Virus record (IMG/VR): IMGVR_UViG_3300035662_001191
Location: 1-25,924 of that record
Reading direction: 5' to 3' (one strand)
Source: a virus
DNA: 25,924 bases
Numbering within the stretch: the first letter of the stretch is position 1; every line of letters begins with the position of its first letter. A model generated the notes under the pieces. That model saw nothing but the letters and a program-made list of their open reading frames with translations. It did not search any database and had not been told where the DNA came from. The position numbers and the translations under genes were made by a program. This document shows positions 6,093 through 25,624 of this stretch, one piece after another.

Positions 6093-6112
6093 ATTAATTA
6101 ACTTTATCCCCT

Positions 6113-6850: not shown

Positions 6851-7437
6851 ATGATTTAATTATGTTTGATTTTCAGCATTTCTATCAAAGAATTGCAAAA
6901 GAGTTACCCAACAACGCACGACTAGCAGAAGTCGGTATTGCAAATGGCGATAGTGTTATATATCTAGCACAAGAATTAAAAAACTTGGGTAAAGATTTTA
7001 AAATTTATGCAATAGATAATATGGGCTACGGTGGTTTTTTCCAAATGAAAACCATATACGAAAACATTATAAAAAGTGGTTTGGGTGATTATATAGAAGT
7101 AATGCCTTATGCAAGTTTAGATTGTGCTAAAATGTTTAATGATGGTTTTTTAGATTTTGTTTACATTGATTCATCACACACATACAAAGAAACAAAACAA
7201 GAGGTAATTGAATGGTATAATAAAGTAAAAGACGAAGGCATACTTGCAGGCCATGATTTTAATGCAGATGAAGTAAATAGAGCAGTGAGTCAAATTGTAC
7301 CAAAAACATTTACTAGAGCAGATATTGCAGATAGAGAATTTGAAGCAGAAAAAGTTTTACATTCAGAAGAAACTGCTAACGGATGGGGATTATGGTGGTT
7401 TAAAAAACAATGGTATTTAAAACTAAATAAATTTTAA
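6847..7437 (+). CDS. Class I SAM-dependent methyltransferase (Methyltransf_24-like)
   Basis: The ATG at 6847 is chosen because it makes an ATGA overlap with the preceding stop; an in-frame ATG at 6835 would add only four residues. The 196-residue protein shows the Rossmann SAM-binding loop AEVGIANGDSVIYL (residues 27-40), an acidic strand end (YAIDN) and the family pattern FVYIDSSHTYKET followed by DEGILAGHDF. Related enzymes are often found in sugar-modification and glycan clusters. A role methylating a sugar of the glycan made by the neighbouring transferases is the best guess. The acceptor is unknown. Confidence 0.78.
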   Translation: MNDLIMFDFQHFYQRIAKELPNNARLAEVGIANGDSVIYLAQELKNLGKDFKIYAIDNMGYGGFFQMKTIYENIIKSGLGDYIEVMPYASLDCAKMFNDGFLDFVYIDSSHTYKETKQEVIEWYNKVKDEGILAGHDFNADEVNRAVSQIVPKTFTRADIADREFEAEKVLHSEETANGWGLWWFKKQWYLKLNKF

Positions 7438-7438
7438 T

Positions 7439-8446
7439 ATGAAAACAGCTTTAGTTTGTGGCGCAGGGGGATTTATAGGAAGCCACATGGTTAAAAGATT
7501 GAAGAAAGATGGTTATTGGGTCAGAGGTGTAGATTTAAAATATCCAGAACACTCCAATACTCTAGCAGATGAATTTATTATTGGAGATTTAAGAGATGAA
7601 AAATTAGTAAGCAAAGTTTTGTGGTGTCCTTATCAACATTATTTAGGAGATAAGGATAATGCATTTGATTTAGTAATTCAAATGGCTGCCGATATGGGCG
7701 GGGCTGGGTACATTTTTTCAGGAGATAACGATGCAAATGTTATGCATAATTCAGCTTTAGTTAATTTGAATATAGCTTTTTATGCATCTAAATGTAATGT
7801 TAAAAAATTATTCTTTTCATCTAGCGCTTGTGCTTACCCGCAAGAAATACAAGAGTCAACAGATAATAAAGGTTTAAAAGAAAGCGATTGTTTTCCAGCA
7901 AATCCAGATAGCCCTTATGGCTGGGAAAAAATATTTAGCGAAATATTGTTTGATTCATTTTATAGAAACTATGGTCTTGATATAAGAATAGCTAGGTTTC
8001 ATAACATATTTGGAGAAGAAGGTACATGGGAAGGGGGAAAAGAAAAAGCTCCAGCAGCATTAACTAGAAAAGTTTGCGAAGCAGAAGATGGTGGAGAAAT
8101 AGAAATATGGGGTGATGGATTGCAAACAAGATCATTTTTATATATAGATGAATGTATAGAAGGTGTAATGAGATTGCTTGAAAGCGATTATAGAAAACCA
8201 GTTAATATTGGTTCAGATGAAATGGTATCAATAAATGATTTAGCTAAAACAATAATTAAAATTTCAGGTAAAAATATTAAAATAAAGAATATAGAATCTA
8301 ATGCAATAGGTGTAAGAGGAAGAAATTCAAATAACGAGTTGATAGAGCAAGTTTTAGATTGGCGTCCAAACCAGCCTTTAAAAAATGGTTTAGATAATTT
8401 ATATGTTTGGATTAATGAGCAAGTTAACAAAAACAAAAATATATGA
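7439..8446 (+). CDS. GDP-mannose 3,5-epimerase-like short-chain dehydrogenase
   Basis: This 335-residue extended SDR enzyme has the NAD-binding CGAGGFIGSH at residues 7-16 and the catalytic YxxxK at 160-164. It also has features specific to GDP-mannose 3,5-epimerase as remembered from the plant enzyme: AADMGGAGYI, catalytic Cys131 in SSSACAYP, RFHNIFGEEGTWEGG, EKAPAA with Lys203, WGDGLQTRSF and NIGSDEMVS. The family converts GDP-D-mannose to GDP-L-galactose and GDP-L-gulose. The match runs nearly end to end, so the family call is strong; the exact product is not proven. It lies one base after the methyltransferase gene and overlaps the FkbM gene. Confidence 0.88.
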   Translation: MKTALVCGAGGFIGSHMVKRLKKDGYWVRGVDLKYPEHSNTLADEFIIGDLRDEKLVSKVLWCPYQHYLGDKDNAFDLVIQMAADMGGAGYIFSGDNDANVMHNSALVNLNIAFYASKCNVKKLFFSSSACAYPQEIQESTDNKGLKESDCFPANPDSPYGWEKIFSEILFDSFYRNYGLDIRIARFHNIFGEEGTWEGGKEKAPAALTRKVCEAEDGGEIEIWGDGLQTRSFLYIDECIEGVMRLLESDYRKPVNIGSDEMVSINDLAKTIIKISGKNIKIKNIESNAIGVRGRNSNNELIEQVLDWRPNQPLKNGLDNLYVWINEQVNKNKNI

Positions 8447-9078
8447 TGATATCATTTGACTATTTAGTCAACAAGCATAAGTTAGATATAAAAGGCGTTC
8501 TTCATTTAGGCGCATCAACAGGGCAAGAAAGAAAAGAATACGATAATTATTGTAAGGGGGATGTTTTGTGGGTTGAAGCAATACCATCTGTTTATTTAGA
8601 ATTGGTAAAAAACATAGAACCTTATGAATACCAAAGAGCTTTTAACGCTTGTCTAAGTAATGTAGACAATGACGAAGTGGTTTTTAATGTGTCAAATAAT
8701 GAAAGCCAAAGTTCATCAATGCTTGAGCTTGGTACTCACCTTTTAATCCATCCTGAAGTACATTACATAGAACAGATAACCATGAAAACTAAAAGAGTTG
8801 ATACTCTGTTTAAGGGTTATAGTTTTAAAAATATAAACTTTCTTAACGTAGATCTTCAAGGTGCAGAGCATCTAGCAATAGAAGGGATGGGCGATTTAAT
8901 TAAGAATATAGATTACGCATTGCTAGAAGTAAACCAAAAAGAAACCTACAAAGGGTGTATGCTTATTCCTGAGTTAGATTATTTCATGATGCAGCGCGGG
9001 TTTGAAAGAGTTGAAACGGGGGATTGGGTTGCCGATACATGGACTGACGCACTTTATGTAAGAAAATTTAATATATGA
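8443..9078 (+). CDS. FkbM-family methyltransferase
   Basis: The 211-residue protein fits the FkbM family of O-methyltransferases. It has a SAM-binding start GVLHLGASTGQE (residues 18-29), the acidic strand WVEAIP near 43, the mid-protein NESQSSSML, and NFLNVDLQGAEHLAIEGM followed by ALLEVN. FkbM-type enzymes methylate hydroxyls on sugars and secondary metabolites. Overlaps at both ends (ATGATG at the start, ATGA at the stop) place it firmly in the glycan operon. With the earlier methyltransferase it suggests a doubly methylated, possibly capped, glycan. The substrate is inferred from context only. Confidence 0.87.
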   Translation: MMISFDYLVNKHKLDIKGVLHLGASTGQERKEYDNYCKGDVLWVEAIPSVYLELVKNIEPYEYQRAFNACLSNVDNDEVVFNVSNNESQSSSMLELGTHLLIHPEVHYIEQITMKTKRVDTLFKGYSFKNINFLNVDLQGAEHLAIEGMGDLIKNIDYALLEVNQKETYKGCMLIPELDYFMMQRGFERVETGDWVADTWTDALYVRKFNI

Positions 9079-9896
9079 TAGACGTGCCGCAGGAGTTTAT
9101 GCCTACCATAAACACGGTTTATCCATTTGAAAATTATACCATTTTTGAAGAATGGGTTTCAAGTAGATTTATACCAGAGTTTAATGGAAGGGCGTATTTA
9201 AGAATCCATTGGACATCATATCATGTAAATAACAACTACGGGAATGATCCAGTAGCTAGAAAAAGCCTGCAAGACTATGTAGATGCGTTACCTAGAAATC
9301 AGCAATATTGGACTATTTGCCAATATGATGATGGGGTTTTGGTTGACTTTAAAGATTTAGATATATTGGTATTTAATATGAGTAAGAAAGAAGGGGTAGA
9401 AATACCTTTGCTTTGTATGCCACATAGTTTTAAATGGAATGGTAAAAAAAGTATTTTTGCCTCTTTTATTGGCACTAATACTCATCCAATAAGAAACTAT
9501 GTATTTAGTATTCAAAATCCAGATTATTACATATCTCAAGAACAACACGATGTTAATAGGTTTTGCGGTATTGTCAGCCAATCTATATTTGGATTATGCC
9601 CTAGAGGATATGGGTTAAACAGCTTTAGAATAGCGGAGTGCCTCCAATACGAAACTATTCCTGTTTATATTAGCGATGAGTTTATTAATTGTTTCGATGC
9701 CAATTTTGAAGATTATGGGGTAATTATAAAAGCAGAAGATGCCCATAAAATAGTTCCAATTTTAAATAGTATCCCAAGTATAGATATAGTTGAAAAGCAA
9801 CTAAAAATTAAAGAAATATACAATAAGTATTATACTTATCAAGGGGCTTTAAACAACATAATACTGAAGCTAAATGAAGATAGCGGTAATTCATAA
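9075..9896 (+). CDS. Exostosin/GT47-like glycosyltransferase
   Basis: This 273-residue protein contains the characteristic exostosin C-terminal signature at residues 172-204: FGLCPRGYGLNSFRIAECLQ, then IPVYISDEFI. That region forms the GT-B nucleotide-sugar site in GT47 enzymes. Upstream, SIFASFIGTNTHPIRN (126-141) matches the usual strand before it. No membrane anchor is present, unlike the Golgi enzymes of eukaryotes. It overlaps the previous gene by ATGA and the next by 23 bases. Donor and linkage are unknown. Confidence 0.8.
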   Translation: MIDVPQEFMPTINTVYPFENYTIFEEWVSSRFIPEFNGRAYLRIHWTSYHVNNNYGNDPVARKSLQDYVDALPRNQQYWTICQYDDGVLVDFKDLDILVFNMSKKEGVEIPLLCMPHSFKWNGKKSIFASFIGTNTHPIRNYVFSIQNPDYYISQEQHDVNRFCGIVSQSIFGLCPRGYGLNSFRIAECLQYETIPVYISDEFINCFDANFEDYGVIIKAEDAHKIVPILNSIPSIDIVEKQLKIKEIYNKYYTYQGALNNIILKLNEDSGNS

Positions 9897-10419
9897 CTTT
9901 GACGCTAGCGATAGATTTGATAGATTAATGAATGAATTTAAGGAGCAGGGTATTAAAGATTTTTCCTTTTTCCCGGCTGTATATGATTCTCATTCGGTTA
10001 AAAGGGCAATTAACGTAGCCCACAAGCAGTGCGTTCAGTATGCCAAAGATACGGGGTTGCCTGAAATATGTATAATGGAGGACGATGTTCATTTTACCAA
10101 TCCGGATAGTTTTTCGTACTTTTTAAGAAATAAGCCATTAGATTTTGATATATATTTAAGTGGCATATACATTGGAGAGATTCGTCAAGACCAAACAGTA
10201 GATAATTTTACCGGTTTTCACTGTTACATAGTCAACAGCAAGTTTTACGATACATACCTAAATACGCCTTTGGATGAGCATATAGACCGTGCGTTAGGGG
10301 GTTTAGGGAAGTATGTGGTTTCCGATCCTTTTATCGCTATTCAATACAACGGATTTTCATATAACACAAAAATGGAAATGAATTATGATAGTTTATTGGA
10401 AGGCAGAAAATTATATTAA
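9874..10419 (+). CDS. Second GT25-like glycosyltransferase, short
   Basis: The 181-residue product resembles family 25, with an N-terminal IAVIHNFDASDRFDRL and an acidic EDD at 69-71 (CIMEDDVHF). It is shorter than, and only distantly similar to, the other GT25-like protein in the cluster, so this is not a recent duplication. The start lies 23 bases inside the exostosin-like gene, implying translational coupling. It is the last gene of the glycan operon; an AT-only hairpin and T-run follow its stop. Confidence 0.7.
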   Translation: MKIAVIHNFDASDRFDRLMNEFKEQGIKDFSFFPAVYDSHSVKRAINVAHKQCVQYAKDTGLPEICIMEDDVHFTNPDSFSYFLRNKPLDFDIYLSGIYIGEIRQDQTVDNFTGFHCYIVNSKFYDTYLNTPLDEHIDRALGGLGKYVVSDPFIAIQYNGFSYNTKMEMNYDSLLEGRKLY

Positions 10420-10495: not shown

Positions 10496-12850
10496 ATGCA
10501 ACAGGCCACCAACACATACCCTAACCAGCAGATAGATCCTAGAGAAAAAGGATACGATTGGATACTACAATACTGCAAAGCTGCGTGGGGTGATTCAAGA
10601 GGGTATGTTCCTAACAATATGTTAAATTTTGGTCAATCCAAAATGAACGAAATTAGAGAATATGCATTAGGTAGACAAAGTACAACTAAATATAAAAAAC
10701 TTTTAAATGTCGATGAACAACAAGATAAAACTTGGTTGAACATTGATTGGACTCCGCCATCTTTTTTAACAAAGTTTAGAGAGATAGCAATATCAAAATT
10801 AGTTCAAAGAAGATATGATATAAATGCATTTGCGGTAGATCCAATTGCTAAAAGTGAAGAAGATAATTACTTTACCGAAATGAAGGTAAAGATTTTAATG
10901 AGAGAAGCAGCACAAAAAGCAGGTAATCAAGAATTGCTTAATAGCCCAGTGTTAGCGCCTCAGCCGGGCGAAGCTCAAGATTTAGAGCAATTAAAAATGG
11001 AGGAGCAATTTGGATACAAGCACGTTATGTCTATGGAAGCAGAGATGGCAGCATCTTTAGCAATGTATCAAAATAAATTTGAAGAAAAAAGAAAACGCAC
11101 AATAGAAAATCTTTTTGATTTTGGAATGGGCGGTTATACAGAATACATAGATGAAAATGGTCAAGTAAAATTAAGAGAGATTAACCCTGAAAATATGGTG
11201 TTGTCTTATTGTGCTAAAAATGATTTTTCAGATTTAGTGCATTGGGGTGAAGTTAGAGAAGTATATGTAGGTGATCTTGCTCCGTGGTTTACAGTAGAGC
11301 AAATGAATCAAATTGTACAAAGCGTAGCAGGTCGTTTTGGTAATCCATCAAACTTTATGTATGGTACTGACTATTCTAAATATTGGAATAGATTTAAAGT
11401 GCTTGTTTTGGATTTTGAATTTTTATCTTGGAACGATTATACATACAAAGAAGAAGTAGACAACAGAGGCAATGTAAGATTTGGCAAGACAAAATATCAA
11501 GACGCAACTAAGCTATCTGTAACCAAAGAAGGTGTTATTGATAAAATGGGAACTATACCTAACATGATAGATTTTACCATGAAAGGTCAAGCAGAACCAG
11601 TTTTCATGCCTGTTACTCGTAAGGTAGTTTACAAGTGTAAGTGGCTTATCCAAACGGACTATATGTACGATTGGGGTATGTCAGAGAATCAAATCAGAAA
11701 ACCATCATCTTGGTGGGATACTAAATTAAATATTCAGCTTTATTCTTGGAATTTTTATAAGATGCGCTTTGCTGGTATTACAGAAAGATTAATTCCACTT
11801 GAAGATAAAGCTAGTCTTACTTGGTTTAAATTACAAAATATGTCAAATAAGTTAATTCCTTATTTGATTAACATTGATTTAAACGCACTTGAGGGAGTTG
11901 ATTTTGGTGGTGGTGGAGAAAAAATGAATCCTACAAAAGTTATGGATTTTATTTTCTCAAACTTTGTTGTGCCTTACAGATCAACAGATTTATTAAGTCA
12001 AAATCCTAATTACAAACCTGTATCCATTGAGGCATCAGGTCAATTAGCTGTGTTTGGTCAATTATATCAAGAGTTGCAAAATACTTTGGATATGATGCGT
12101 CAAATATCTGGATTAAATGAATTAACAGATGGTTCTACTCCAAATGCTAAGACATTGGTTCCAGTTGCAAACGCAGCAATGGAAAGTACAAACAATGCTT
12201 TGTATCTATTAGCTTTTGCAGATAAACAATTAATACAAGATTTAGCAGATGCTATTGTTAGCAAGGTTCAGATTGCAGTTAAATTAGGTAAAGTGGAAGG
12301 TTATGCTAGGTCATTAGGTGAAGAAACTGTTAAATTTTTCCAAATTAATCCTGATATTTCAATTCATGAGTTTGGTATTTTTATTGAAGATGTACCTTCT
12401 AGTTTTGAAAGACAACAATTAATTCAAGAATTAAACATAAGAGATAGCCAAGGACTTATAGAGCCAGAAGATAAGATATTAGTAATGAGTACTAAGAATT
12501 TAAAGATGGCGTCTATGATCTTAGCTTATAGAATTAAAAAGCGCAGAGAGAAATTACAAGAATTTGAATTACAAAAAATTCAGGAAGCATCTCAAGGTAA
12601 TGCTATGGCAGTTCAGGTTGCAGAGCAAGAGAAGCGTGTTACATTACAAACTCAATTAGAGGTCGATATTGCTCGTATCAATGCAGAAAAACAATGGGAT
12701 TACATTATCCAAATGGGCAAGAAAGACAAAGATATTCAAGAAGCAGAAATTCAAAAAGAAGCAAAAGTTATTGCTCAAAGAATACAAGCAGATGCTAGAA
12801 TAGTAGTAAGCGAAAAGAAACAAATACAAACACCCAAAATAGAAAAATAA
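10496..12850 (+). CDS. Portal protein
   Basis: At 784 residues this fits a large phage portal, the dodecameric ring through which DNA enters and leaves the head. The evidence is partly positional: it is the first gene of the head module, upstream of scaffold-like and major capsid genes. The sequence supports it with a conserved-looking N-terminal part (LNIDWTPPSFLTKFREI near residues 79-95), a Trp/Tyr-rich middle, and a long C-terminal helical region (about 650-784) rich in Gln/Glu/Lys that could form the barrel. No clip or stem motif can be assigned by eye. The stop overlaps the ferritin-like gene (TAATG). Confidence 0.68.
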   Translation: MQQATNTYPNQQIDPREKGYDWILQYCKAAWGDSRGYVPNNMLNFGQSKMNEIREYALGRQSTTKYKKLLNVDEQQDKTWLNIDWTPPSFLTKFREIAISKLVQRRYDINAFAVDPIAKSEEDNYFTEMKVKILMREAAQKAGNQELLNSPVLAPQPGEAQDLEQLKMEEQFGYKHVMSMEAEMAASLAMYQNKFEEKRKRTIENLFDFGMGGYTEYIDENGQVKLREINPENMVLSYCAKNDFSDLVHWGEVREVYVGDLAPWFTVEQMNQIVQSVAGRFGNPSNFMYGTDYSKYWNRFKVLVLDFEFLSWNDYTYKEEVDNRGNVRFGKTKYQDATKLSVTKEGVIDKMGTIPNMIDFTMKGQAEPVFMPVTRKVVYKCKWLIQTDYMYDWGMSENQIRKPSSWWDTKLNIQLYSWNFYKMRFAGITERLIPLEDKASLTWFKLQNMSNKLIPYLINIDLNALEGVDFGGGGEKMNPTKVMDFIFSNFVVPYRSTDLLSQNPNYKPVSIEASGQLAVFGQLYQELQNTLDMMRQISGLNELTDGSTPNAKTLVPVANAAMESTNNALYLLAFADKQLIQDLADAIVSKVQIAVKLGKVEGYARSLGEETVKFFQINPDISIHEFGIFIEDVPSSFERQQLIQELNIRDSQGLIEPEDKILVMSTKNLKMASMILAYRIKKRREKLQEFELQKIQEASQGNAMAVQVAEQEKRVTLQTQLEVDIARINAEKQWDYIIQMGKKDKDIQEAEIQKEAKVIAQRIQADARIVVSEKKQIQTPKIEK

Positions 12851-13335
12851 TGGTAAAGTCTTTATTATCAGCAAACATGAGAAAAGGTTTGCAAGAGGCA
12901 CTTCAAATGGAATTATATCAATCTAACCTTTGGAAGCATTTGGCTAACCAATTGCAAAGATTAGGTTACTTTGGTAGTCAGAAATATTTCTTAGATGAAA
13001 GTGCAGAAGAATTGACGCATTACCAAATTATCGTTGACTTTATGAATGATATGGGTGATTGCGCTAGTTTGCCTGAAATTGAAGCAATGAAGGATAAGGT
13101 TGAATCAATTGGCGATGCATTAGAAATTGGGTACGAAACAGAGCTAGATGTATTAAATATGTACAAAGAGTTACAAAAGCAAGCTCAAGAAGAAGATTGC
13201 GCAGTTGGCATTTTCTTACAGCAATTTGTTACGATTCAAGTAAAAGCAGTAGGTCATTACGGAGATTTATTAGCTAAATACAAAGTTGCTGAATACACTA
13301 AAGAGCTTTTAGAATTTGATCAACACATTAATTAA
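12850..13335 (+). CDS. Ferritin-like diiron protein
   Basis: This 161-residue protein matches the four-helix ferritin fold. Helix A has MELYQS (Glu21), helix B AEELTH (Glu54, His57), helix C YETELDV (Glu98) and helix D FVTIQV (Gln130). Aligned by eye with FtnA, these are the ferroxidase ligands Glu17, Glu50, His53, Glu94 and Gln127. The third-site Glu130 is replaced by Ala133, as in eukaryotic H-ferritin. It would store or oxidise iron, or protect DNA from Fenton chemistry. The short C-terminal helix and head-module position also allow a repurposed structural protein. It is coupled to the portal gene by TAATG. Confidence 0.78.
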   Translation: MVKSLLSANMRKGLQEALQMELYQSNLWKHLANQLQRLGYFGSQKYFLDESAEELTHYQIIVDFMNDMGDCASLPEIEAMKDKVESIGDALEIGYETELDVLNMYKELQKQAQEEDCAVGIFLQQFVTIQVKAVGHYGDLLAKYKVAEYTKELLEFDQHIN

Positions 13336-15962: not shown

Positions 15963-16523
15963 ATGCACAACGAAATTTGGAAGCCAATTTTGGGCGTTAA
16001 AAACGATTTATATGATGGGTATTACGAAGTAAGTAATTTAGGTAGGGTAAAAATGCTTCCTAGATTATTGAATCATAGTAAAGGCATGAGGGTGTCTAAA
16101 GAAAAAATAGTAACAGGGAGCAATAGTCATGGTTATAAAATTGTTTCTTTTAAAAAAGATGGCATTAAAGCGGTAGTTGCTGTCCATGTGCTAGTAGCTA
16201 GGGCTTTTATTAAAAATCCATGTCCTGATAGATTTAAAATTGTTAATCATTTAAATAGTGATAGGGCTGATAATAGGGCTGAAAATTTAGAGTGGTGCGA
16301 CCACAGTCGAAATGCAAAACATGCTATTGAGGCTGGTAGGGTAAAAATATTACAAGGTTCTTCTAGATCTTCTGCCATTTTGAACGAAGATAAAGTTTTG
16401 GCAATAAAATTGCTGTATAAAACAGGAAAGTTTTCTTATTGGAAACTTGCTGAAATATTTGAGATAGGTAAAACAACTATTCAAGGTATTATTAATGGAA
16501 CCAAATGGACTCATGTAGTCTAA
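15963..16523 (+). CDS. HNH homing endonuclease (NUMOD4-HNH-HTH)
   Basis: This 186-residue protein has three recognisable parts. Residues 5-30 are a NUMOD4 DNA-binding motif (EIWKPI, then YYEVSNLGRVK). Residues 75-121 are an HNH nuclease with His75, Asn95-His96 (VNHLNSDRADNRAENLEWC) and Asn104. Residues about 140-186 are a helix-turn-helix-like tail (YWKLAEIFEIGKTTIQGIIN). It is a free-standing selfish endonuclease that spreads by cutting alleles lacking it. It sits between the capsid terminator and a structural-region gene, a typical insertion point. It is probably intact. Confidence 0.9.
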   Translation: MHNEIWKPILGVKNDLYDGYYEVSNLGRVKMLPRLLNHSKGMRVSKEKIVTGSNSHGYKIVSFKKDGIKAVVAVHVLVARAFIKNPCPDRFKIVNHLNSDRADNRAENLEWCDHSRNAKHAIEAGRVKILQGSSRSSAILNEDKVLAIKLLYKTGKFSYWKLAEIFEIGKTTIQGIINGTKWTHVV

Positions 16524-16549
16524 TTATTTTATAACTAAAACAACAAAAA

Positions 16550-17437
16550 ATGCAAACAGTCGGAAAATTTAACACAATTTCTGAAGATCTGATGAAATCA
16601 ATCCCACAACTAGAGGTAGGTCAAGCGGTTACGTTTGAAATGCTTACAGGGGTTAAAAACAATGATCCAGATGAAAAAGAAAGACAAAGAAACCCAGTTC
16701 TTTATCCAAAAGCAAATATCCCTACAAGAGATAGAATTAAAGATCCATACTTAGCCAAGCAGGGCAAAGATGCGTGGGTAGAAATCGTGGTAGCGGATTA
16801 TTGGGATAAAGAAAGACCTATTGAAAGACTTTTTGTACCGGGATTAAGTGATGGAGTTACTAACTTCCAATTTGGAGGTAAATTCTCATTAGTCGGTGGC
16901 AATCAAAGAGATGAAGAATTGTATGAGTATTTAATGATTACAAATTTTAACCAAGATTCAATTTTAGGAGAAGGTAGAGATACTAGCAAAACTCCTTTAT
17001 TTAAATTGGTAAATACAAAGGCAGCAAGCCAAAAAACCTTGACAGGATTTGCTACATTGAAAGAAGCAGTAAGCATTATTTCTACATTGACAGCAGCAGA
17101 AGCAAGAAAAATTGGCGCAGCTCTAAACTGGAATGAATTTACTGATGATGATGCTATTTTGGCTGAAGCTGCAAACTTGGCAAGATCAAATCCAGAAGAA
17201 TTTTTGAAGGTTTATAAAGATCCAAATTTAGAAACAAAGGCAGCCATTAGAAAGGCTTTAGATACTAATATTTTAAATTTTGACATGGCAACCGGTAAGG
17301 TAAACATAGGCAGTCAGGAGATTACAACTATTGCAAAACAAGACAGAGGTAATGTAACTGATGCTCTAACACAATTCATTTTGTCCGCTAAAAACGGAAA
17401 AGAAGTCTTGGAAAACATCAAGAGTCAGTTAAAATAA
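16550..17437 (+). CDS. Unassigned protein of the head-proximal region
   Basis: I do not recognise this 295-residue protein. The first 120 residues are mixed, with a basic, Pro-containing stretch (RQRNPVLYPKANIPTRDRIK) and several Trp/Phe residues. From about 160 it becomes helical and Ala-rich, including two acidic segments (DDDAILAEAANLARS) and a Lys-rich end. No signal peptide or membrane segment is seen. An A-rich leader precedes the ATG and a strong terminator follows the stop. Position downstream of the capsid gene suggests a head, head-completion or head-associated regulatory protein, but nothing in the sequence proves it. Confidence 0.6.
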   Translation: MQTVGKFNTISEDLMKSIPQLEVGQAVTFEMLTGVKNNDPDEKERQRNPVLYPKANIPTRDRIKDPYLAKQGKDAWVEIVVADYWDKERPIERLFVPGLSDGVTNFQFGGKFSLVGGNQRDEELYEYLMITNFNQDSILGEGRDTSKTPLFKLVNTKAASQKTLTGFATLKEAVSIISTLTAAEARKIGAALNWNEFTDDDAILAEAANLARSNPEEFLKVYKDPNLETKAAIRKALDTNILNFDMATGKVNIGSQEITTIAKQDRGNVTDALTQFILSAKNGKEVLENIKSQLK

Positions 17438-17456
17438 TTTAATTTAATTTTTAGCA

Positions 17457-17493
17457 AAAAAGCTCCATTAAAAAAATAATGGGGCTTTTTGTA
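17457..17493 (+). terminator. Intrinsic terminator
   Basis: AGCTCCATTA (17461-17470) pairs with TAATGGGGCT (17477-17486) with one G-T wobble, extended by A/T pairs and ending in a T-run. It ends the transcript of the 295-residue gene. The ATG at 17479 is inside this stem and is therefore not a credible start. Confidence 0.82.
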
Positions 17494-17521
17494 TTTGTGT
17501 TATTATTTATTGGTATTTTTG
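17494..17521 (+). promoter_or_regulatory. Candidate promoter for the fibre-region genes
   Basis: TATTTTTG at 17514-17521 matches TAnnTTTG. TTTG at 17494-17497 is 16 bases upstream, and another TTTG at 17488-17491 is 22 bases upstream, so either spacing is slightly off. It lies between a terminator and the ATG at 17536, which would give an almost leaderless message. Confidence 0.4.
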
Positions 17522-17535
17522 ATAAACGTTTTTTT

Positions 17536-18054
17536 ATGCCTTTAGTAGAAAATTTTACCGCCACGCAATATGTAGCTACTCCAAATTTACTTGTATTAGA
17601 TGATACAAGCACAGGAAGCGATGCAGGTATTACAGTAAGATATGTTTATTTGCAAAAAGCAGATGGATCATATTTAGTTGAAGGAGGAACAACAACTAAT
17701 TATGAAATATGGACATTAGCTTCTGGTAATACAATTAGTTTAAATGTTTTAGATAAAGATTATGCATTAACAATTACGGTTGAGTGGAGAAGTAATAGCG
17801 CAGTATTATATAATAAAACTGTGTCTTATTGTTTTTCAACTTACGCTAAAATATATAATGTAAAATTATCAAAAGCACAAGTATCAAGTCCAAGTTTGTT
17901 AGATAGAGATAATTGGTTAAGTACAAAATGTAATTTAAATACATACATTGATGCAGCTGATGATGCTGTTGCTTTAGGTGCAGGAATTACAATTGCGCAA
18001 TTATCATTAAACAAAGCAAAATTTATTATTGATAATCCTAAATTAGTATTCTAG
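17536..18054 (+). CDS. Unassigned beta-rich protein, probably structural
   Basis: The ATG at 17536 is preferred over 17479, because the latter lies in the terminator stem and would add a 19-residue hydrophobic leader with no homologous look. The resulting 172-residue protein is rich in Thr, Val, Tyr and Ser with alternating strand-like segments, and ends in a helix-like AADDAVALGAG region. No known motif is recognised. It begins the transcription unit leading into the fibres and directly abuts the next gene (TAG then ATG), so a connector, neck or tail role is plausible. Confidence 0.6.
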   Translation: MPLVENFTATQYVATPNLLVLDDTSTGSDAGITVRYVYLQKADGSYLVEGGTTTNYEIWTLASGNTISLNVLDKDYALTITVEWRSNSAVLYNKTVSYCFSTYAKIYNVKLSKAQVSSPSLLDRDNWLSTKCNLNTYIDAADDAVALGAGITIAQLSLNKAKFIIDNPKLVF

Positions 18055-18573
18055 ATGCCAACGACAGCAGAGGTAATTGATATAGCAAGAGTAACTGTTG
18101 CAGTTGTTATAAAAGCAATTGAACAAAATCAAGAAAATGATCTTGAATTGCCTAATAAAATTCGCATTGAAGCAAATGCATTAGAGTGGGTGAACACAAC
18201 AGGATATACAGGAATAAATATAAATGGATTTACAGACTATGTGTATGGAATGTGCGGTGGGTATGCGTTTGAGGCTGAAGCGTTGATGGGAGTTGCTGGT
18301 GTTGTTGTAAATCCTTCAAGTGGTGGCAACGGAAGATTCCCAGAACAATTTGGCAAATTTGCTAGTAGTGGTTCTGTTGTAATTTCATTTAGTCAAGCAT
18401 TAAATAAATCATTATTATATGCGAGTAGAGGTGGTATCGATGTTGGAGAAATTATAACATCAGGTACTCCGGTTTTAAATCAAGTTAAATGGGATAGTGC
18501 AACTGCGACTTTAACGGTAGCATCAGCTGTTCCGTTTGTTACAGGCGAATATGTTAAAATATTAGTGTACTAA
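18055..18573 (+). CDS. Unassigned protein ahead of the first fibre gene
   Basis: This 172-residue protein has a helical N-terminus (EVIDIARVTVAVVIKAIEQ), a Gly-rich centre (MCGGYAFEAEALMGVAGVVV) and a C-terminal beta region ending in ATLTVASAVPFVTGEYVKIL, which looks like a small carbohydrate-binding or immunoglobulin-like sandwich. Its ATG follows the preceding stop directly, and the fibre gene begins 19 bases after its own stop. Likely a tail or adaptor component by position; no family is recognised. Confidence 0.6.
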   Translation: MPTTAEVIDIARVTVAVVIKAIEQNQENDLELPNKIRIEANALEWVNTTGYTGININGFTDYVYGMCGGYAFEAEALMGVAGVVVNPSSGGNGRFPEQFGKFASSGSVVISFSQALNKSLLYASRGGIDVGEIITSGTPVLNQVKWDSATATLTVASAVPFVTGEYVKILVY

Positions 18574-18592
18574 AACACATAAAAATAATCAG

Positions 18593-21500
18593 ATGGCAAT
18601 ACAAGGTCTTTTTACGGGTGAAGTAAAAATAAGAGAATTAAATGGTGTGTTAATTGCCACCGATGGTATTGTTGATTCTGTTGGTAATATTACTTCAGGA
18701 ACAGCAGGTACTTCTGGTTCATCTGGTACTTCTGGTACTTCCGGCACGGGTGGTACTTCTGGATTTGCAGGAACAGCAGGTAGACTTGTAAATAATTATA
18801 TAGCAATAGCAGGACAAACTAATTTCAATGTGCCAAGTGGATATGATAATGGCATGATAGATGTTTTCGTTAATGGAGTAAAATTATTTCCAAGCGATTA
18901 TACAGCGACAGATGGTTACAATGTAATACTTAATAATGCTTTGCAAGTAGGCGATAATGTAGAAATAGATAATTTTGTATCTAGCTATGTTTCTTCTTCT
19001 GGTTCATCTGGAACGGCGGGTACCGCAGGTACTTCTGGTACAACAGGTACCTCTGGTATTGGCGGTGATAAATATTATACAATATCTGTTTCAATTTTTA
19101 CATTAGGAACGGGCGGTTATCTTATGGTTTCTCCGGGCTTATCATACTCCCCTGCTCAATCAATTATTGTAGTACATGATAATACTCACTTCCAAGAATG
19201 TGAGGTAGTTTCTTATAATGTTGTTACAGGAGAATTAGTATTTGGTGATCCTAGCAGAGTTGTTGGAGGTGGAACATTTTCTAGTTGGGTAGTAAATTTA
19301 GATGGAGCCTCTGGTGGTGATGGTACTTCTGGTACAAGTGGTAGCTCTGGTTCAAGCGGTAGCTCTGCTACAAGTGGCACTAGCGGTACTACTGGTACAT
19401 CTGGTAGTTCAGGTAGCTCTGGTTCAAGTGGTTCTAGCGGTTCATCTGGTTCAAGTGGTTCTAGCGGAAGCAGTGGCTCATCAGGTTCATCAGGAACATC
19501 TGCTACTAGTGGAAGCAGTGGTACTTCTGGCATAGATGGTACTTCTGGTACATCAGGAAGCAGTGGTTCATCAGGGTCTAGTGGAACATCGGGTTCTTCA
19601 GGAACATCTGCTACTAGCGGAACAACAGGGACTAGCGGGACAGCAGGTACAACAGGTACATCTGGTCTTTCAGGAGATAGATATAGAACAACATCTACTT
19701 CAACATTTACTTTAGGCAATGCAGGAACTATTACCGTAGGAACACTATTGGGATATAGCCCTGTTCAATCAATAATTATAGTCTATGATACTTCAAACTT
19801 TCAAGAGTGCGAGGTGGTATCATATGATGCAAATACAGGTTCTTTAACATTTTTGGCTCCTACTAGAACAGTAGGTAGTGGAACATATTCGTCATGGACA
19901 GTGAACTTAGATGGCGCTAGTGGTGGAGATGGTTCAAGCGGCACTTCGGGTACTTCTGGTTCATCAGGTTCAAGCGGCACTTCTGGTACCACTGGTACTT
20001 CTGGTACCACAGGTACTTCCGGTACCACAGGTCGTAATGGTATAGATGGTTCTTCAGGAGCTTCTATTGCTAACTGGTATGGTGCGTTTACAAGTACATC
20101 CACTCAAGTGGTAACTGGCGCAAATGTAGCGACAGCAATTACATATACGAATCAAGAGCTAGCTTTTGGTATATCTTACTCAGGTTCTCAAATAACAGTT
20201 CAACATACTGGTATCTATGAAATAGGATATTCACTTCAAATAGAAAAAACACAAGGCACAGCTGCTGACGTTAATATTTGGTTAGTTAAAAATGGTACAG
20301 AAATTATTAGAACTGATTCTATCTTAGGCTTAGTATCTAATTCATCAAAATCATTGCCATTCGTTTCTATTATAGATAGTGCAACTGCAAATGATTATTA
20401 CCAAGTTTATTTCCAATCAACTAATGAGCATGTTCAAATTACAGCAGTAGCTGCAAGTGGTTCAATCCCAGCAGCACCATCAATCATTACCAATATCAAA
20501 CAAATTGGCATAGCTGTTGGTACAACTTCTGGTACTTCTGGAACATCTGGCAGCTCTGGTACCACAGGTACAAGTGGTTCTTCTGGCTCTAGTGGATCAT
20601 CAGGTTCATCAGGTTCAAGTGGAAGCAGTGGATCTTCTGGAACAACGGGGACAAGTGGTTCTTCGGGTACCACAGGAACTTCGGGTACGACTGGTACTTC
20701 GGGTTCAAGCGGTACATCTGCAACAAGTGGTTCAAGTGGAACTAGTGGTCTTTCTGGTACTTCTGGTGCGCAAGGAACTAGCGGTACCACTCCCGTAGGT
20801 GTAATAACAGGCTCAGGTACAACAAACTACCTACCTAAGTTTACAGGTGCAAGTACAATAGGAGATAGCGTAATACAAGAAGTGAGTTCTAATATTGGAA
20901 TAGGTGTAAGTCCTTCATATAAATTAGATGTAAATGGGGCTGCTCAATTTAGAGATGATATTCGCTTCAGCACTACAAATAGTTCTATTGGTTATACAGA
21001 TGCAATTAGATTTGTAGAATTAGGTGTAGCTACAAGAATGACATTATCTTCAGGCAATTTAGGAATCGGAACGACTTCGCCTAATCATTTATTATCATTA
21101 TCTGCAACTGCAAGTAATGCAACAGTAATAGGATTATACAATACTTTTAATGATGCTACAAATAGAAACTGGGGAATAGCTACAAACCAAATTGCATTTG
21201 GTGATTTCCATATTATGCAAAGCAATGCTAAAGATGGCAACCCTATTTCTGCTGGTACATCAAGATTAATGATTAATGCATCTGGTAACGTTGGAATCGG
21301 AACGAGTACAAGTTTAAGTAATAAATTTACTGTTAATGGTACAATAGCAAATGGTTTTAATTGGGGAGTTTCTGGTTCTACCTTAAATATAGTTCCAGAT
21401 GCAGTAGGCACAAATGGAATTACTTTATCTGCAAGTTATTGGAGTGATGGATATGGTCCTATAAAGTTTAATACAAGTGATACCGAACGAATGAGAATCA

Positions 21501-22183
21501 CATCGGGGGGTCAAATATTGTTTCAAAAGACAGCTGCTAATAATACAGATACAGGAGTAGTTTGGTTTCCAAATGATTATTTTTGTGTTACTAATAATTC
21601 AGCAGACTCAGGTGATAGAGTTGTACTTATAAACAGACAAAATTCAGACGGTACTTTAATTGATTTTAGACACGCAAATGTAACTGAGGGAACTATATCT
21701 GTTTCAGGAAGTACTGTTTCCTATAATGGTGGTCACCTTTCAAGATATTCACAAACGGAATTAAATGAAAAAATAGAAGGTTTATTAAAGGGTACAGTAA
21801 TGTCAAATCTTGATAAAATGGCTGAATGGATAAACCCAGAAACAAAAGAGCCTTATGAAAATGAGCAGTTAAACTGTATGAAGATTTCAGATGTAGAAGG
21901 TGATAAAAATGTAGCAGGTGTTTTTGTTAATTGGGAATATGATTCTGAATTGTTAACAAATGATATGAACATAGCAATGACAGGTGATATGATTATAAGA
22001 ATTGCACAAGGAGTAGTAGTAGAAAAAGGTCAATTATTGATTTCAGCAGGTGATGGAACTGCAAAACCACAAGAAGATGATATTGTTAGAAGTAAAACAA
22101 TTGCAAAAGTTACATCTAATCATATTACTTGTGTTTATGAAGATGGTTCTTATTGTGTACCTTGCGTATTAATGGCTTGTTAA
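18593..22183 (+). CDS. Collagen-like tail fibre with multiple globular modules
   Basis: A 1196-residue fibre. Parts in order: N-terminal anchor (1-35); short Gly-X-Y arm (36-63); fibre domain with IDVFVNGVKLFPSDYTA (65-130), a type common in aquatic phage fibres; short arm; an 80-residue module (159-242); long GTSG/GSSG arm (243-361); the same module again (362-446); arm (441-489); a jelly-roll-like C1q/BclA-type domain (493-640); arm (643-731); beta repeats with NVGIGT-type motifs (735-1045); and a C-terminal domain (1046-1196) ending in YCVPCVLMAC. The last resembles, from memory, the end of marine phage fibres with DVEGD and GDGTAKPQ motifs. It probably binds the host surface. Confidence 0.88.
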   Translation: MAIQGLFTGEVKIRELNGVLIATDGIVDSVGNITSGTAGTSGSSGTSGTSGTGGTSGFAGTAGRLVNNYIAIAGQTNFNVPSGYDNGMIDVFVNGVKLFPSDYTATDGYNVILNNALQVGDNVEIDNFVSSYVSSSGSSGTAGTAGTSGTTGTSGIGGDKYYTISVSIFTLGTGGYLMVSPGLSYSPAQSIIVVHDNTHFQECEVVSYNVVTGELVFGDPSRVVGGGTFSSWVVNLDGASGGDGTSGTSGSSGSSGSSATSGTSGTTGTSGSSGSSGSSGSSGSSGSSGSSGSSGSSGSSGTSATSGSSGTSGIDGTSGTSGSSGSSGSSGTSGSSGTSATSGTTGTSGTAGTTGTSGLSGDRYRTTSTSTFTLGNAGTITVGTLLGYSPVQSIIIVYDTSNFQECEVVSYDANTGSLTFLAPTRTVGSGTYSSWTVNLDGASGGDGSSGTSGTSGSSGSSGTSGTTGTSGTTGTSGTTGRNGIDGSSGASIANWYGAFTSTSTQVVTGANVATAITYTNQELAFGISYSGSQITVQHTGIYEIGYSLQIEKTQGTAADVNIWLVKNGTEIIRTDSILGLVSNSSKSLPFVSIIDSATANDYYQVYFQSTNEHVQITAVAASGSIPAAPSIITNIKQIGIAVGTTSGTSGTSGSSGTTGTSGSSGSSGSSGSSGSSGSSGSSGTTGTSGSSGTTGTSGTTGTSGSSGTSATSGSSGTSGLSGTSGAQGTSGTTPVGVITGSGTTNYLPKFTGASTIGDSVIQEVSSNIGIGVSPSYKLDVNGAAQFRDDIRFSTTNSSIGYTDAIRFVELGVATRMTLSSGNLGIGTTSPNHLLSLSATASNATVIGLYNTFNDATNRNWGIATNQIAFGDFHIMQSNAKDGNPISAGTSRLMINASGNVGIGTSTSLSNKFTVNGTIANGFNWGVSGSTLNIVPDAVGTNGITLSASYWSDGYGPIKFNTSDTERMRITSGGQILFQKTAANNTDTGVVWFPNDYFCVTNNSADSGDRVVLINRQNSDGTLIDFRHANVTEGTISVSGSTVSYNGGHLSRYSQTELNEKIEGLLKGTVMSNLDKMAEWINPETKEPYENEQLNCMKISDVEGDKNVAGVFVNWEYDSELLTNDMNIAMTGDMIIRIAQGVVVEKGQLLISAGDGTAKPQEDDIVRSKTIAKVTSNHITCVYEDGSYCVPCVLMAC
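19067..19318 (+). repeat. Shared fibre module, copy A
   Basis: About 84 residues: FTLG, YSPAQSIIVV, NFQECEVVSY-type strand, VVNLDGASGGDG. Copies B and C lie at 19676-19930 (fibre 1) and 24230-24487 (fibre 2). Each is flanked by Gly-X-Y arms, so the module behaves as an exchangeable unit. It looks like a small beta sandwich; no family is recognised. Confidence 0.85.
19319..19675 (+). repeat. Main collagen-like Gly-X-Y arm of fibre 1
   Basis: About 118 residues of almost unbroken Gly-X-Y where X and Y are nearly all Ser or Thr, with no proline. Three Gly-to-Ala changes occur in the context SATS (residues 259, 304, 340). The Ser codons are mixed (TCT, TCA, AGC, AGT). At 19421-19467 a 27-base unit is exactly repeated over 20 bases. 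Confidence 0.92.
19676..19930 (+). repeat. Shared fibre module, copy B
   Basis: Residues 362-446 of fibre 1. It shares FTLGNAGTI, GYSP, SIIIVYD, TGSLTF, TVGSGTYSSWTVNL and GASGGDGSSGTSG with copy C in fibre 2, to which it looks closer than to copy A beside it. Confidence 0.85.
20519..20785 (+). repeat. Distal collagen-like Gly-X-Y arm of fibre 1
   Basis: Residues about 643-731 of fibre 1 repeat GTSG, GSSG and GTTG and contain a fourth SATS interruption (Ala710). The arm links the jelly-roll-like domain to the C-terminal beta region. Shorter arms lie at 18698-18781, 19001-19063 and 19913-20059. Confidence 0.9.
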
Positions 22184-22234
22184 TTATTAATAAAAGAACT
22201 AAAAGCAGAAATAGACGAATTAAAAAATAAATAA
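22184..22234 (+). pseudogene. Relic of a peptidase S74-type fibre C-terminus
   Basis: Directly after the TAA of fibre 1, and in the same frame, the bases encode LLIKELKAEIDELKNK and then a TAA. This is the typical closing coiled-coil of intramolecular chaperone (S74) domains; fibre 2 ends in the comparable ALEKRIAELEAKLNK. No start codon precedes it. The simplest reading is that the fibre's original chaperone end was replaced by the present C-terminal domain and only its last helix remains. Translation by stop-codon readthrough is possible but unproven. Confidence 0.7.
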
Positions 22235-22236
22235 TT

Positions 22237-22287
22237 ATGAAATATTGGTACATTAATCAATTATTTAAATTTGTAGCTACAAAATAA
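22237..22287 (+). CDS. Possible 16-residue leader peptide or gene remnant
   Basis: ATG at 22237 opens a 16-codon frame (MKYWYINQLFKFVATK) whose TAA overlaps the ATG of the GIY-YIG gene (TAATG). It could couple translation into that gene, or be the truncated start of a gene interrupted there. WYINQLF slightly recalls the opening of the small fibre-region protein at 23084 (NFQFVISQL). Weak on its own. Confidence 0.3.
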   Translation: MKYWYINQLFKFVATK

Positions 22288-23078
22288 TGGCATACGTTTA
22301 CCGACATATCAGGCTTGACAAAAATGAACCTTTTTATATTGGGATAGGTTCGGATGAATCATATTTCAGGGCAAACAAAAAAAGTCAAAGAAATATACAT
22401 TGGAAAAGAATTGTGTCTAAATCTGATTATGAAGTAGAAATTTTAATAGATGATTTAACTTGGGATGAAGCAAAAGAAAAGGAAAAGGAGTTTATAGCAT
22501 TATATGGTAGATGTGATCTAAGTAATGGATGTTTAGTAAATATGACTGAAGGAGGGGATGGGACAATTGGTAAAATTATAACCGATGAAACAAAACAAAA
22601 ATTATCTGATTCTATAAAAGAATGGAATAAAACAAGAGTAATTAGTGATATTCAAAGAAGCAAAGCATCACAACTATTTAAAGAATTCAATAAAAATGAA
22701 GAATTTAAACAAAAACGTATGTCTGCTTTAAGAAATAGTGATAAATTAAAAGAATATAATAATTCAAGAAAGGGAATACCAAGTGGGTATAAACATACTG
22801 AACATAGTAAGAAATTAATAGCACAATCTAAAATTGGCAAAAAAATAGCATTTGAGCATTATTCTAAAAAATGTAAACCTTTATTACAATTAACTTTAAA
22901 TGGCGAATTTATTAAAGAATGGGAGTCTGCAAGAGAGGTACAAAGAGAACTTAAATTTAATCAGGGTAATGTATCAAAATGCTTAAATGGAGAATATAAA
23001 CAAGCCTATGGATTTATATGGAAATATAAATACCCTGAAAGAATGGGTAGAAAACCAAGAACAATTAATAAAAATTAA
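22287..23078 (+). CDS. GIY-YIG homing endonuclease with NUMOD repeats
   Basis: This 263-residue protein starts with a GIY-YIG nuclease: YVY at 3-5 and YIG at 17-19, then Arg29, Glu68 and Asn85 (NMTEGGDG) as the probable catalytic set. The middle is Lys-rich with a NUMOD3-like element (GIPSGYKHTEHSKK, about 166-179). The C-terminus holds a NUMOD1-like DNA-recognition repeat (GEFIKEWESAREVQ, then GNVSKCLNGEYKQAYGFIW). It is free-standing and lies between the two fibre genes, where it could promote gene conversion of the fibre locus. It appears intact. Confidence 0.88.
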   Translation: MAYVYRHIRLDKNEPFYIGIGSDESYFRANKKSQRNIHWKRIVSKSDYEVEILIDDLTWDEAKEKEKEFIALYGRCDLSNGCLVNMTEGGDGTIGKIITDETKQKLSDSIKEWNKTRVISDIQRSKASQLFKEFNKNEEFKQKRMSALRNSDKLKEYNNSRKGIPSGYKHTEHSKKLIAQSKIGKKIAFEHYSKKCKPLLQLTLNGEFIKEWESAREVQRELKFNQGNVSKCLNGEYKQAYGFIWKYKYPERMGRKPRTINKN

Positions 23079-23083
23079 ATAAA

Positions 23084-23446
23084 ATGACAAATTTTCAGTT
23101 CGTAATCTCGCAGCTTAATTGTGCAGTAGAATCAGAAGGTTTACCAGATGTAATCAATATGATTCATTGGAGATACAATGCAACACAAGTAGATGGAGAT
23201 AAAACCTACTTTGCTGACACTTATGGTTCATCAAGTGTAGCACAACCAAATCCACAAAACTTTATACCTTACGCAGATGTAACTGAAGCTGAAGTAATTG
23301 GATGGTTAGAGGCAATATTACCTGTGGATGCTATGCAATTAGCTTTAGAAAACAATATTGCTTTACAAATTAACCCTGTTGAGGTTACATTGCCCTTACC
23401 TTGGGCTACTCCATCAGAAAATAGTGTAGAAAATACGACAGTATAA
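23084..23446 (+). CDS. Small fibre-region protein of unknown function
   Basis: This 120-residue protein (FQFVISQLNCAVESEG near the start, FIPYADVTEAEVIGWLEAIL in the middle, LPLPWA near the end) has the outline of a small phage family found beside fibre genes in aquatic phages: an N-terminal beta domain, a FIPY...V..W helix and a terminal LPW. This is recalled, not searched. Function is unknown; an assembly or accessory role for the fibres is a guess from position. It begins five bases after the endonuclease gene. Confidence 0.68.
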   Translation: MTNFQFVISQLNCAVESEGLPDVINMIHWRYNATQVDGDKTYFADTYGSSSVAQPNPQNFIPYADVTEAEVIGWLEAILPVDAMQLALENNIALQINPVEVTLPLPWATPSENSVENTTV

Positions 23447-23464: not shown

Positions 23465-23481
23465 AAAAAAAACTAAAAAAA

Positions 23482-23661
23482 ATGAACCAAGAAACAAAAC
23501 AACTACCGGTACCATCATTGAACGCTGAACAAGTTCAAGTATTAATGAATTATGCTAATGAGCAATTGCCAACAAAATATGGCAAAGAGATACTAGGATT
23601 TATTGAAAAAATAGCTATTGAATTAGAAAAAGCAAAAGAAGTTCCTGTTGAAACAGAATAA
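23482..23661 (+). CDS. Small helical protein ahead of fibre 2
   Basis: A 59-residue frame (MNQETKQLPVPSLNAEQVQV at the start) with an A-rich leader like its neighbours. Residues 14-52 are predicted helical by composition (LMNYANEQLPTKYGKEIL, then IEKIAIELEKAK) and the end is acidic. It fills the gap between two real genes and its stop is 10 bases from the fibre start. No family recognised. Could be a small fibre or tail accessory protein; real coding is likely but not certain. Confidence 0.6.
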   Translation: MNQETKQLPVPSLNAEQVQVLMNYANEQLPTKYGKEILGFIEKIAIELEKAKEVPVETE

Positions 23662-23671
23662 AAAATAGAAA

Positions 23672-25624
23672 ATGAGCAAAAATACAGTCCTTAGTGAAAT
23701 ACCTAATGTATCAGGCATAATAAAGCAGGTTGGTACAAGTGGTTTTGCAACTGCAACTCCTAATGTGGATTATCAACTACCAATTAGTTTAACCACATTT
23801 GGCGTAACTGGACCGGCTACTTTTAGTAGCAATGTATTGAATATACCTATTTATGGATCAAGTGGTACGACTGGTACATCAGGTACTAGTGGCATAGGCA
23901 CTTCTGGGACTAGCGGTAATGCGGGTACTTCAGGTTCTTCAGGCACTAGCGGAATTGATGGCACTTCGGGGACTACTGGTACATCAGGTTCTTCGGGGTC
24001 TAGTGGTACTAGTGGCATCAATGGCACTTCTGGTACTACGGGTACTTCAGGCTCATCAGGCTCATCTGGAACTTCAGGAACAACTGGGACATCAGGTTCA
24101 AGTGGCTCTAGTGGCTCATCTGGAACTAGAGGTACTAGTGGTTCATCAGGAACTACGGGTACTTCAGGCTCATCAGGAACTACGGGTACTAGCGGTTCAT
24201 CAGGCACTAGTGGTATAAATGGCGTTAGTGGAGATAGATATTTAACCACTTCAGCTACATCTTTTACATTAGGCAATGCAGGTACAATATCAGTAGGATT
24301 AGGATTAGCTTATAGTCCAGCTCAAACTGTTATCATTGTTTATAACGGAAGCAATTATCAAGAATCACCCGTAACATCATATTCTAGTATAACGGGTAGT
24401 TTATCATTCGGCGCACCCATTGCAACAGTTGGTTCGGGTACTTACACTGCTTGGACAGTAAACCTCGCAGGTGCAAGTGGCGGGGATGGTAGTTCTGGTA
24501 CTAGCGGTACTTCTGGGCTAGCAGGGACAAGTGGTGTTAATGGGACAAGTGGTATCAATGGCACAAGCGGATTAAGTGGCACAAGTGGATTAAGCGGTAC
24601 AAGTGGTAATAATGGTACAAGCGGATTAACTGGTACTTCAGGTATAAATGGTGTGAACGGTACTTCAGGTATAAATGGTGTGAACGGTACTTCAGGAATT
24701 AATGGTACTAGCGGCGTTAGTGGCTCTAGTGGATCAAGCGGCTCAAGTGGATCAAGTGGCACTAGAGGTACAAGTGGAGTAAATGGTAATAACGGTACTT
24801 CAGGTACAAGCGGTGTAAATGGAAGCAGTGGTGTAAATGGAAGTTCAGGTGTAAACGGAACGGCTGGCATTAGTGGAACATCTGGGGCAAACGGTACTTC
24901 AGGAGTAAATGGAACAAGCGGTGTTTCTGGTTCTTCTGGCATAAATGGTAATAACGGTACTTCAGGTACAAGTGGCGCACAAGGTGGTAATGGTACTTCA
25001 GGCGTTAGTGGTTCAAGTGGCGTAAGTGGTTCTTCAGGCACTTCTGTGTCAGTGTCAGGAACAACCAATAGAGTAGTTAAATTTACATCTTCATCTACAA
25101 TAGGTAATTCAGATATTAGTGATACTGGTTCATTAATTAAAATGAGTAACGGAGATGGCGTAAATGTTCAATTAGGAGATGGTGGTGCGTCAAATTGCAA
25201 TCTTGATTTTTACGCTTCAAATGCTAATAGCGGTTACGGAGGAAGAATACAGGGTAGAAATAGCAATGGAAAAGTTTATTTTTTATATAGAAATAATAGT
25301 GCTTCTTATAGTGATATAGGTTTTTGGGATGCAACTGGTATAAATGCAATAGCATTTTTTGAAACATCTGATATAAGATTTAAGAATGTATTAGAAACAA
25401 ACCCATCCATAGATTTACCATTAGATGTAATTAAATTTACTAGAACAGATGAAGATAGTAATACGATTAGATATGGTTATTCAGCTCAGCAAGTAAAATC
25501 ATACCTTCCAGACGCAGTTTCAGGTAGTGAAAAATTATCTGTAAATTACATGGATGTTCATACATTAAAAATAGCAGCATTAGAAAAACGTATTGCAGAA
25601 TTAGAAGCTAAATTAAATAAATAA
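23672..25624 (+). CDS. Collagen-like tail fibre with S74 chaperone end
   Basis: A 650-residue fibre. Residues 1-61 form an N-terminal beta domain, 62-187 a Gly-X-Y arm, 187-272 the module shared with fibre 1, 267-457 a second arm rich in GINGTSG and GVNGSSG, 460-560 a beta region, and 562-650 a peptidase S74 intramolecular chaperone. The chaperone shows SDIRFK, giving the Ser566/Lys571 pair spaced as in endosialidase chaperones, then YGYSAQQV, YLPDAV and a closing coiled-coil. In this family the chaperone trimerises the fibre and cuts itself off. The stop overlaps the next gene (TAATG). Confidence 0.9.
   Translation: MSKNTVLSEIPNVSGIIKQVGTSGFATATPNVDYQLPISLTTFGVTGPATFSSNVLNIPIYGSSGTTGTSGTSGIGTSGTSGNAGTSGSSGTSGIDGTSGTTGTSGSSGSSGTSGINGTSGTTGTSGSSGSSGTSGTTGTSGSSGSSGSSGTRGTSGSSGTTGTSGSSGTTGTSGSSGTSGINGVSGDRYLTTSATSFTLGNAGTISVGLGLAYSPAQTVIIVYNGSNYQESPVTSYSSITGSLSFGAPIATVGSGTYTAWTVNLAGASGGDGSSGTSGTSGLAGTSGVNGTSGINGTSGLSGTSGLSGTSGNNGTSGLTGTSGINGVNGTSGINGVNGTSGINGTSGVSGSSGSSGSSGSSGTRGTSGVNGNNGTSGTSGVNGSSGVNGSSGVNGTAGISGTSGANGTSGVNGTSGVSGSSGINGNNGTSGTSGAQGGNGTSGVSGSSGVSGSSGTSVSVSGTTNRVVKFTSSSTIGNSDISDTGSLIKMSNGDGVNVQLGDGGASNCNLDFYASNANSGYGGRIQGRNSNGKVYFLYRNNSASYSDIGFWDATGINAIAFFETSDIRFKNVLETNPSIDLPLDVIKFTRTDEDSNTIRYGYSAQQVKSYLPDAVSGSEKLSVNYMDVHTLKIAALEKRIAELEAKLNK
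23855..24232 (+). repeat. First collagen-like arm of fibre 2
   Basis: Residues 62-187: Gly-X-Y triplets, mostly GTS, GSS and GTT, with a few GID, GIN and GTR. No proline. One register shift occurs near residue 76 (GIGTSG). Confidence 0.9.
24230..24487 (+). repeat. Shared fibre module, copy C
   Basis: Residues 187-272 of fibre 2, with FTLGNAGTISVG, YSPAQTVIIVY, TGSLSF, TVGSGTYTAWTVNL and GASGGDGSSGTSG. It is the same module as copies A and B in fibre 1. Confidence 0.85.
24470..25042 (+). repeat. Second collagen-like arm of fibre 2
   Basis: Residues 267-457: Gly-X-Y with many GVN, GIN, GNN, GLS and GVS triplets between GTS and GSS. It is more varied than the other arms. Contains the perfect 27-base tandem duplication listed separately. 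Confidence 0.9.
24632..24685 (+). repeat. Perfect 27-base tandem duplication in fibre 2
   Basis: Two identical 27-base units (24632-24658 and 24659-24685), each encoding GTSGINGVN, followed by a partial third (GTSGIN) with synonymous changes. Identity at third positions points to a recent slippage or recombination event. Confidence 0.9.

Follow-up and report, generated by a model that had tools for sequence, protein, structure and literature searches.

Directly behind the stop codon of a long fibre gene in an uncultured phage we identified a short stretch of DNA that corresponds to the last helix of a Peptidase_S74 intramolecular chaperone. We put the probability at about 90% that this stretch is the displaced 3′ end of an S74 chaperone domain that once ended fibre 1, or its predecessor, and that was left behind by recombination. 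The DNA analysed, here called the window, covers positions 1 to 25,924 of the IMG/VR virus record IMGVR_UViG_3300035662_001191, and the features discussed are listed in Table 1. The 45 bases at 22190-22234 are an untranslated fossil of the last helix of an S74 chaperone, and as such a clear and fairly ordinary one.

Table 1. Features of the window around the end of fibre 1 (nucleotide positions in the window)
Feature	Position	Strand	Basis
Fibre 1 gene, collagen-like stalk, non-S74 C-terminus	18593-22183	+	ORF; Pfam collagen, no S74
Acquired domain at the fibre C-terminus, own stop included, ending VPCVLMAC-TAA	21629-22183	+	Alignment with viral loci and Roseobacter phage CRP-831; stop after MAC in relatives
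TTATTA, joint sequence linking the new domain's stop to the S74 remnant	22184-22189	+	LL before IKEL in no intact S74 end in the loci
S74 chaperone 3′-end remnant, IKELKAEIDELKNK-TAA, untranslated	22190-22234	+	33-nt matches, profile score, L195 extension
Remnant of DUF7936 gene start, MKYWYINQL	22237-22263	+	Same start in 64 contigs; tested intact genes PF25590
FKFVATK-stop, joined to the DUF7936 start and similar to the final codons of another S74 fibre end	22264-22287	+	Comparison with L103 and L159
Putative free-standing homing endonuclease gene	22287-23078	+	PF22083, PF07460; NUMOD motifs in Pfam; N-terminus reads as GIY-YIG-like
Complete DUF7936 gene behind the endonuclease gene	23084-23446	+	PF25590, E 3.6e-25

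Results

Identity of the segment behind the fibre 1 stop codon

The stop codon of fibre 1 occupies 22181-22183, and the same frame continues behind it for 16 codons, LLIKELKAEIDELKNK, until a second TAA at 22232-22234. An earlier note, made from the letters of the window, had described this segment (22184-22234), and it is present as described: TTA TTA, followed by ATA AAA GAA CTA AAA GCA GAA ATA GAC GAA TTA AAA AAT AAA TAA. Its reading of the segment as the relic of an S74 tail holds from position 22190 onwards, where the similarity to S74 ends begins with ATAAAAGAA (peptide IKELK). The six bases before that position are joint sequence, since the residues preceding IKEL in the intact S74 ends of the loci are mostly KA, NA, KS or EA and never LL. 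The fibre 1 protein gave no S74 profile match indicative of a functional Peptidase_S74 domain.

We scored the segment on a profile of 25 distinct S74-type ends, which occupy this gene position in other contigs. The 16-mer behind the fibre 1 stop obtained 32.0, within the range of the profile members (18.7-42.9); the next best stop-terminated 16-mer of the window, the end of fibre 2 itself, obtained 13.7, and the best score in 60 Markov-simulated windows was 16.9. A 33-base stretch of the remnant, AAAGCAGAAATAGACGAATTAAAAAATAAATAA, is matched exactly in nine other IMG/VR contigs, and in each of them a long fibre ORF ends with it. Because the score is far above the simulated maximum and the 33-nt matches are all fibre ORF ends, the remnant is not a chance resemblance. 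Peptidase_S74 was reported by Pfam in all four of these ORFs that were tested (L131, L132, L133, L136), and in 7/7 intact reference ends when L103, L195 and L187 are included (E 7e-9 to 4e-19). A 42-nt extension of the match to L195 was equalled in 0 of 400 simulations; A/T-rich codons in the S74 ends of these phages raise such DNA similarity somewhat. In no homologue did the segment turn out to belong to a gene unrelated to S74 domains, an outcome that the earlier note had named as speaking against its claim.

At the DNA level, then, the remnant corresponds to the helix, with its stop codon, by which these fibres end behind their S74 domain (PF13884). It differs from an S74 chaperone in that just the terminal 14 codons are left, outside the ORF of a fibre that has no S74 domain. 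The search for the parental S74 gene gave no exact match, the closest 51-mers differing at seven positions; the end of that gene would be expected to read ...IKELKAEIDELKNK-TAA-TT-ATG-AAATATTGGTAC, on the stalk of this fibre.

Position of the remnant relative to the DUF7936 gene

Two bases past the stop of the remnant, an ATG at 22237 opens the sequence ATGAAATATTGGTACATTAATCAATTA, the start of a DUF7936 gene. We found the same MKYWYINQL start in 64 contigs, with PF25590 in all three intact genes tested. Of the 63 contigs in which the ORF upstream can be read, 57 have an S74 ORF that ends no more than 250 nt before this start, usually at 1-2 nt (S74 ends were counted with a profile from Pfam-confirmed members, which replaced a stricter regular-expression count of 35/64). 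One such fibre, in L195, ends AIQELKAEIDELKNK-TAA-T-ATG, an S74-type end abutting the same DUF7936 start. As 57 of 63 DUF7936 starts are preceded by an S74 ORF, the remnant lies at the exact site at which S74 fibres of relatives end, directly before the DUF7936 start.

The DNA of the sister phage L103 has 93% identity to the window over 16527-20059 (3.5 kb, comprising the start and stalk of fibre 1), diverges through the fibre tip, and is 99% identical again at 23465-23700, which places the exchanged stretch of the window between ~20060 and 23465. Fibre 1 of L103 retains S74 (Pfam E 1.3e-14). The comparison with relatives at this locus, proposed beforehand in the earlier note, thus bore out its claim that a former S74 end was replaced by the present C-terminus and that the joint is frozen in the DNA: the full S74 end is kept in L103, and the S74-type ends of L195 and L159 abut the same DUF7936 start.

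In the window just nine codons of this DUF7936 start are left, and FKFVATK-stop is joined to them; it resembles the end of fibre 1 of L103, LHKIVATK-stop, which stands before an endonuclease gene. The two pieces make up a 16-codon ORF, MKYWYINQLFKFVATK (22237-22287), a DUF7936 start fused to the apparent end of another S74 fibre. The composite MKYWYINQLYKFVATK-stop is found also in L159, behind an S74-type fibre end, and there the downstream DNA differs from that of the window. Truncated DUF7936 starts of another type stand, as in the window, directly before endonuclease genes in three further contigs (L059:5120-5330, L057:240-420, L111:6070-6180), with the peptides MATTYKWVRHK, MATTYKWVIHK or MTTTYKWVRHK followed by a stop.

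We also aligned 26 mutually divergent S74 fibres at their stop codons. Their DNA identity was ~0.33-0.37 further upstream and 0.43-0.75 in the last 60 nt, a contrast that is approximate, as the alignment was ungapped and the rise near the stop is partly an effect of this. The gene following these fibres showed a DNA identity of 0.77-0.95.

The present C-terminal domain of fibre 1

The earlier note was right that the C-terminus has been replaced; the exchanged domain is slightly longer than the 151 residues it gave, comprising ~185 residues. This domain is common to 28 viral loci and Roseobacter phage CRP-831, and alignments over ~185 residues with 22 other viral loci gave 62-84% identity. In all 28 readable relatives the stop codon directly follows MAC, and none of the 28 carries an S74-like tail behind it. 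This pattern suggests that the acquired domain most likely brought its own stop codon and that the remnant stems from the displaced gene. We searched IMG/VR with a pattern of a MAC stop plus helix that fits the window itself, and the search reported no other MAC-domain gene followed by a helix tail, the exact fibre 1 junction being found in this contig only. The pattern gave nine matches, none of them a MAC-domain gene: five that were examined are intact S74 genes read in another frame, three share sequence with one of these five, and L144 looks like chance.

The predicted structure of the domain is beta-rich, in a low-confidence model. Searches of Pfam and PDB returned no convincing match, and PHROG matches to virion and tail proteins were weak. 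Peptidase_G2 (PF11962) was rejected as its identity: the profile was reached by one of 24 members at E 0.07 and had no match in the window, and a fragment of phi29 gp12 came up only at E 0.96, on a model of pLDDT 66.

Similar scars and endonuclease genes at the boundary

A second joint of this kind is seen in L035. The non-S74 fibre there has the end NIYTI-TAA, and LKSQLNK-TAA comes next in the same frame; apart from this copy, the stop-terminated near-exact occurrences of the LKSQLNK DNA are S74-type fibre ends (L038, L043/L123, L044, L062, L063, L064, L111). In a third case, L155, an endonuclease gene ends GYIWKFKALINK-TAA, its last codons (ALINK-TAA) matching S74 tails such as that of L148, and its upstream neighbour is another complete S74-type end. 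This homing-endonuclease gene (L155:9461-10108) has apparently borrowed its last codons from the end of the resident S74 gene. When the other non-S74 ends upstream of DUF7936 were scored for remnants, in A/T-rich DNA and with one set including bases of the next gene, we claimed a remnant for the window, L035 and L155, and a possible one for L194. Two related non-S74 fibre ends were also seen at the DUF7936 boundary, in L203 (upstream of 6973) and L157 (upstream of 8370, + strand). That of L203 has the extra residues EIKQETENK, which resemble an S74 tail within the protein, a resemblance that is statistically not clear.

Homologues of the endonuclease gene of the window occupy the same junction in L059, L103 and L208, and endonuclease genes at the S74/DUF7936 boundary were found in L059, L103, L155, L194 and L208. 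A second putative homing endonuclease gene of the window (15963-16523; NUMOD4 and HNH_3) lies behind a capsid-like gene.

Genome context and host

The terminase of the window is similar, at ~29% identity, to those of phages of Flavobacterium and Cellulophaga, a sequence resemblance that points to a member of the Flavobacteriia as the probable host. Between the terminase gene and the next large structural gene there is an eight-gene sugar cassette (4780-10419), with GT25, GT2, GT11, two methyltransferases, an epimerase, an exostosin-type GT47 and GT25. A ferritin-like protein (12850-13335; PF00210, E 4e-17) is encoded inside the structural gene block.

Discussion

The joint behind fibre 1 would be explained most simply by homologous or microhomologous recombination that imported another C-terminal fibre domain, stop codon included. 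On the right, the crossover would have taken place within the terminal helix of the resident S74 gene, among its conserved last ~45-60 bases. As the S74 end and the downstream DUF7936 gene are conserved between phages, they are usable as a right-hand homology arm, and with the stop of the incoming domain in place the old last 14 codons would no longer be translated. Which way the swap went is inferred, as is a reliance on homology or microhomology, and the homing endonuclease next to the joint may have had a part in it.

An in-frame helix directly behind a stop codon could also reflect readthrough or a recent nonsense mutation, and the earlier note had raised a readthrough product as its second possibility. 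The outcome would be a minor fibre form with an extra helix, IKELKAEIDELK joined to the fibre C-terminus, and indeed the segment is in frame and has no other stop before its end. However, chance alone would put a third of such segments in this frame, the extension is not conserved, the relatives of the domain all stopping at MAC, and the other remnants are neither of one length nor of one sequence. Nor does a lone S74 helix, lacking the remainder of the domain, have an evident use, and we consider this explanation highly improbable. It is likewise very unlikely that the joint is an assembly chimera, with two phage variants fused by the metagenome assembler at the conserved S74 tail. The contig is metagenomic, the junction was seen once, and a tail common to many genomes can be confused by assemblers; yet the joint is unlike a simple repeat collapse, as no S74 tail belongs to the MAC module itself and six joint bases are present. 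Moreover, the right-hand part (the DUF7936 start plus KFVATK) recurs in L159, and L035 carries the same kind of joint.

The segment may in addition have been kept as useful DNA, as a recombination anchor or as an endonuclease target by the DUF7936 start, which would add to a displaced S74 end rather than compete with it. The conservation of the last ~60 nt of S74 genes between otherwise divergent fibres and the repeated presence of endonuclease genes at the S74/DUF7936 boundary fit this idea. The coding of the helix and recent exchange explain the conservation too, however, and several non-S74 fibres at the locus have no clear long remnant (scores of the MATT set are inflated by next-gene bases), so that we regard such retention as rather unlikely. 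Also on the unlikely side is a broader reading in which the S74 fibre/DUF7936 boundary is a dedicated exchange site: free-standing homing endonucleases lying precisely there might cleave resident genomes and so disseminate entire fibre tips, with remnants of S74 tails and DUF7936 starts as the scars.

A displaced S74 end, the reading that we prefer, places one crossover of a fibre-tip exchange within a few bases, and it marks out the final 45-60 bases of the chaperone gene, together with the gene that follows, as the common right-hand joint. The recurrence of endonuclease genes at the boundary makes a homing-driven spread of fibre tips testable. The remnant also calls for caution, as DNA that matches the S74 helix may fall outside any ORF.

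T-even phages are described as exchanging their fibre tips at conserved motifs (Tetart et al., 1998, as cited in PMC7468147, ref. 50). Going by that citation, the two cases are alike in that short conserved motifs serve as recombination sites and the receptor-binding end is swapped; they differ in the phages concerned and in that the present joint falls within the final helix of a chaperone, with an untranslated remnant behind the new stop. In the modular receptor-binding proteins of Klebsiella phages a C-terminal chaperone is variably present (Latka et al., 2019, PMC6872550), and as in our phages some members of the group have it and others lack it; gain and loss were inferred there from protein comparison, whereas here the joint is visible in the DNA. 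The variable islands of natural phage populations frequently contain tail-fibre genes and homing-endonuclease genes alike (PMC7468147). Tail-fibre mosaicism is already known, and the useful addition of the present case is a recurrent joint with homing-endonuclease genes beside it.
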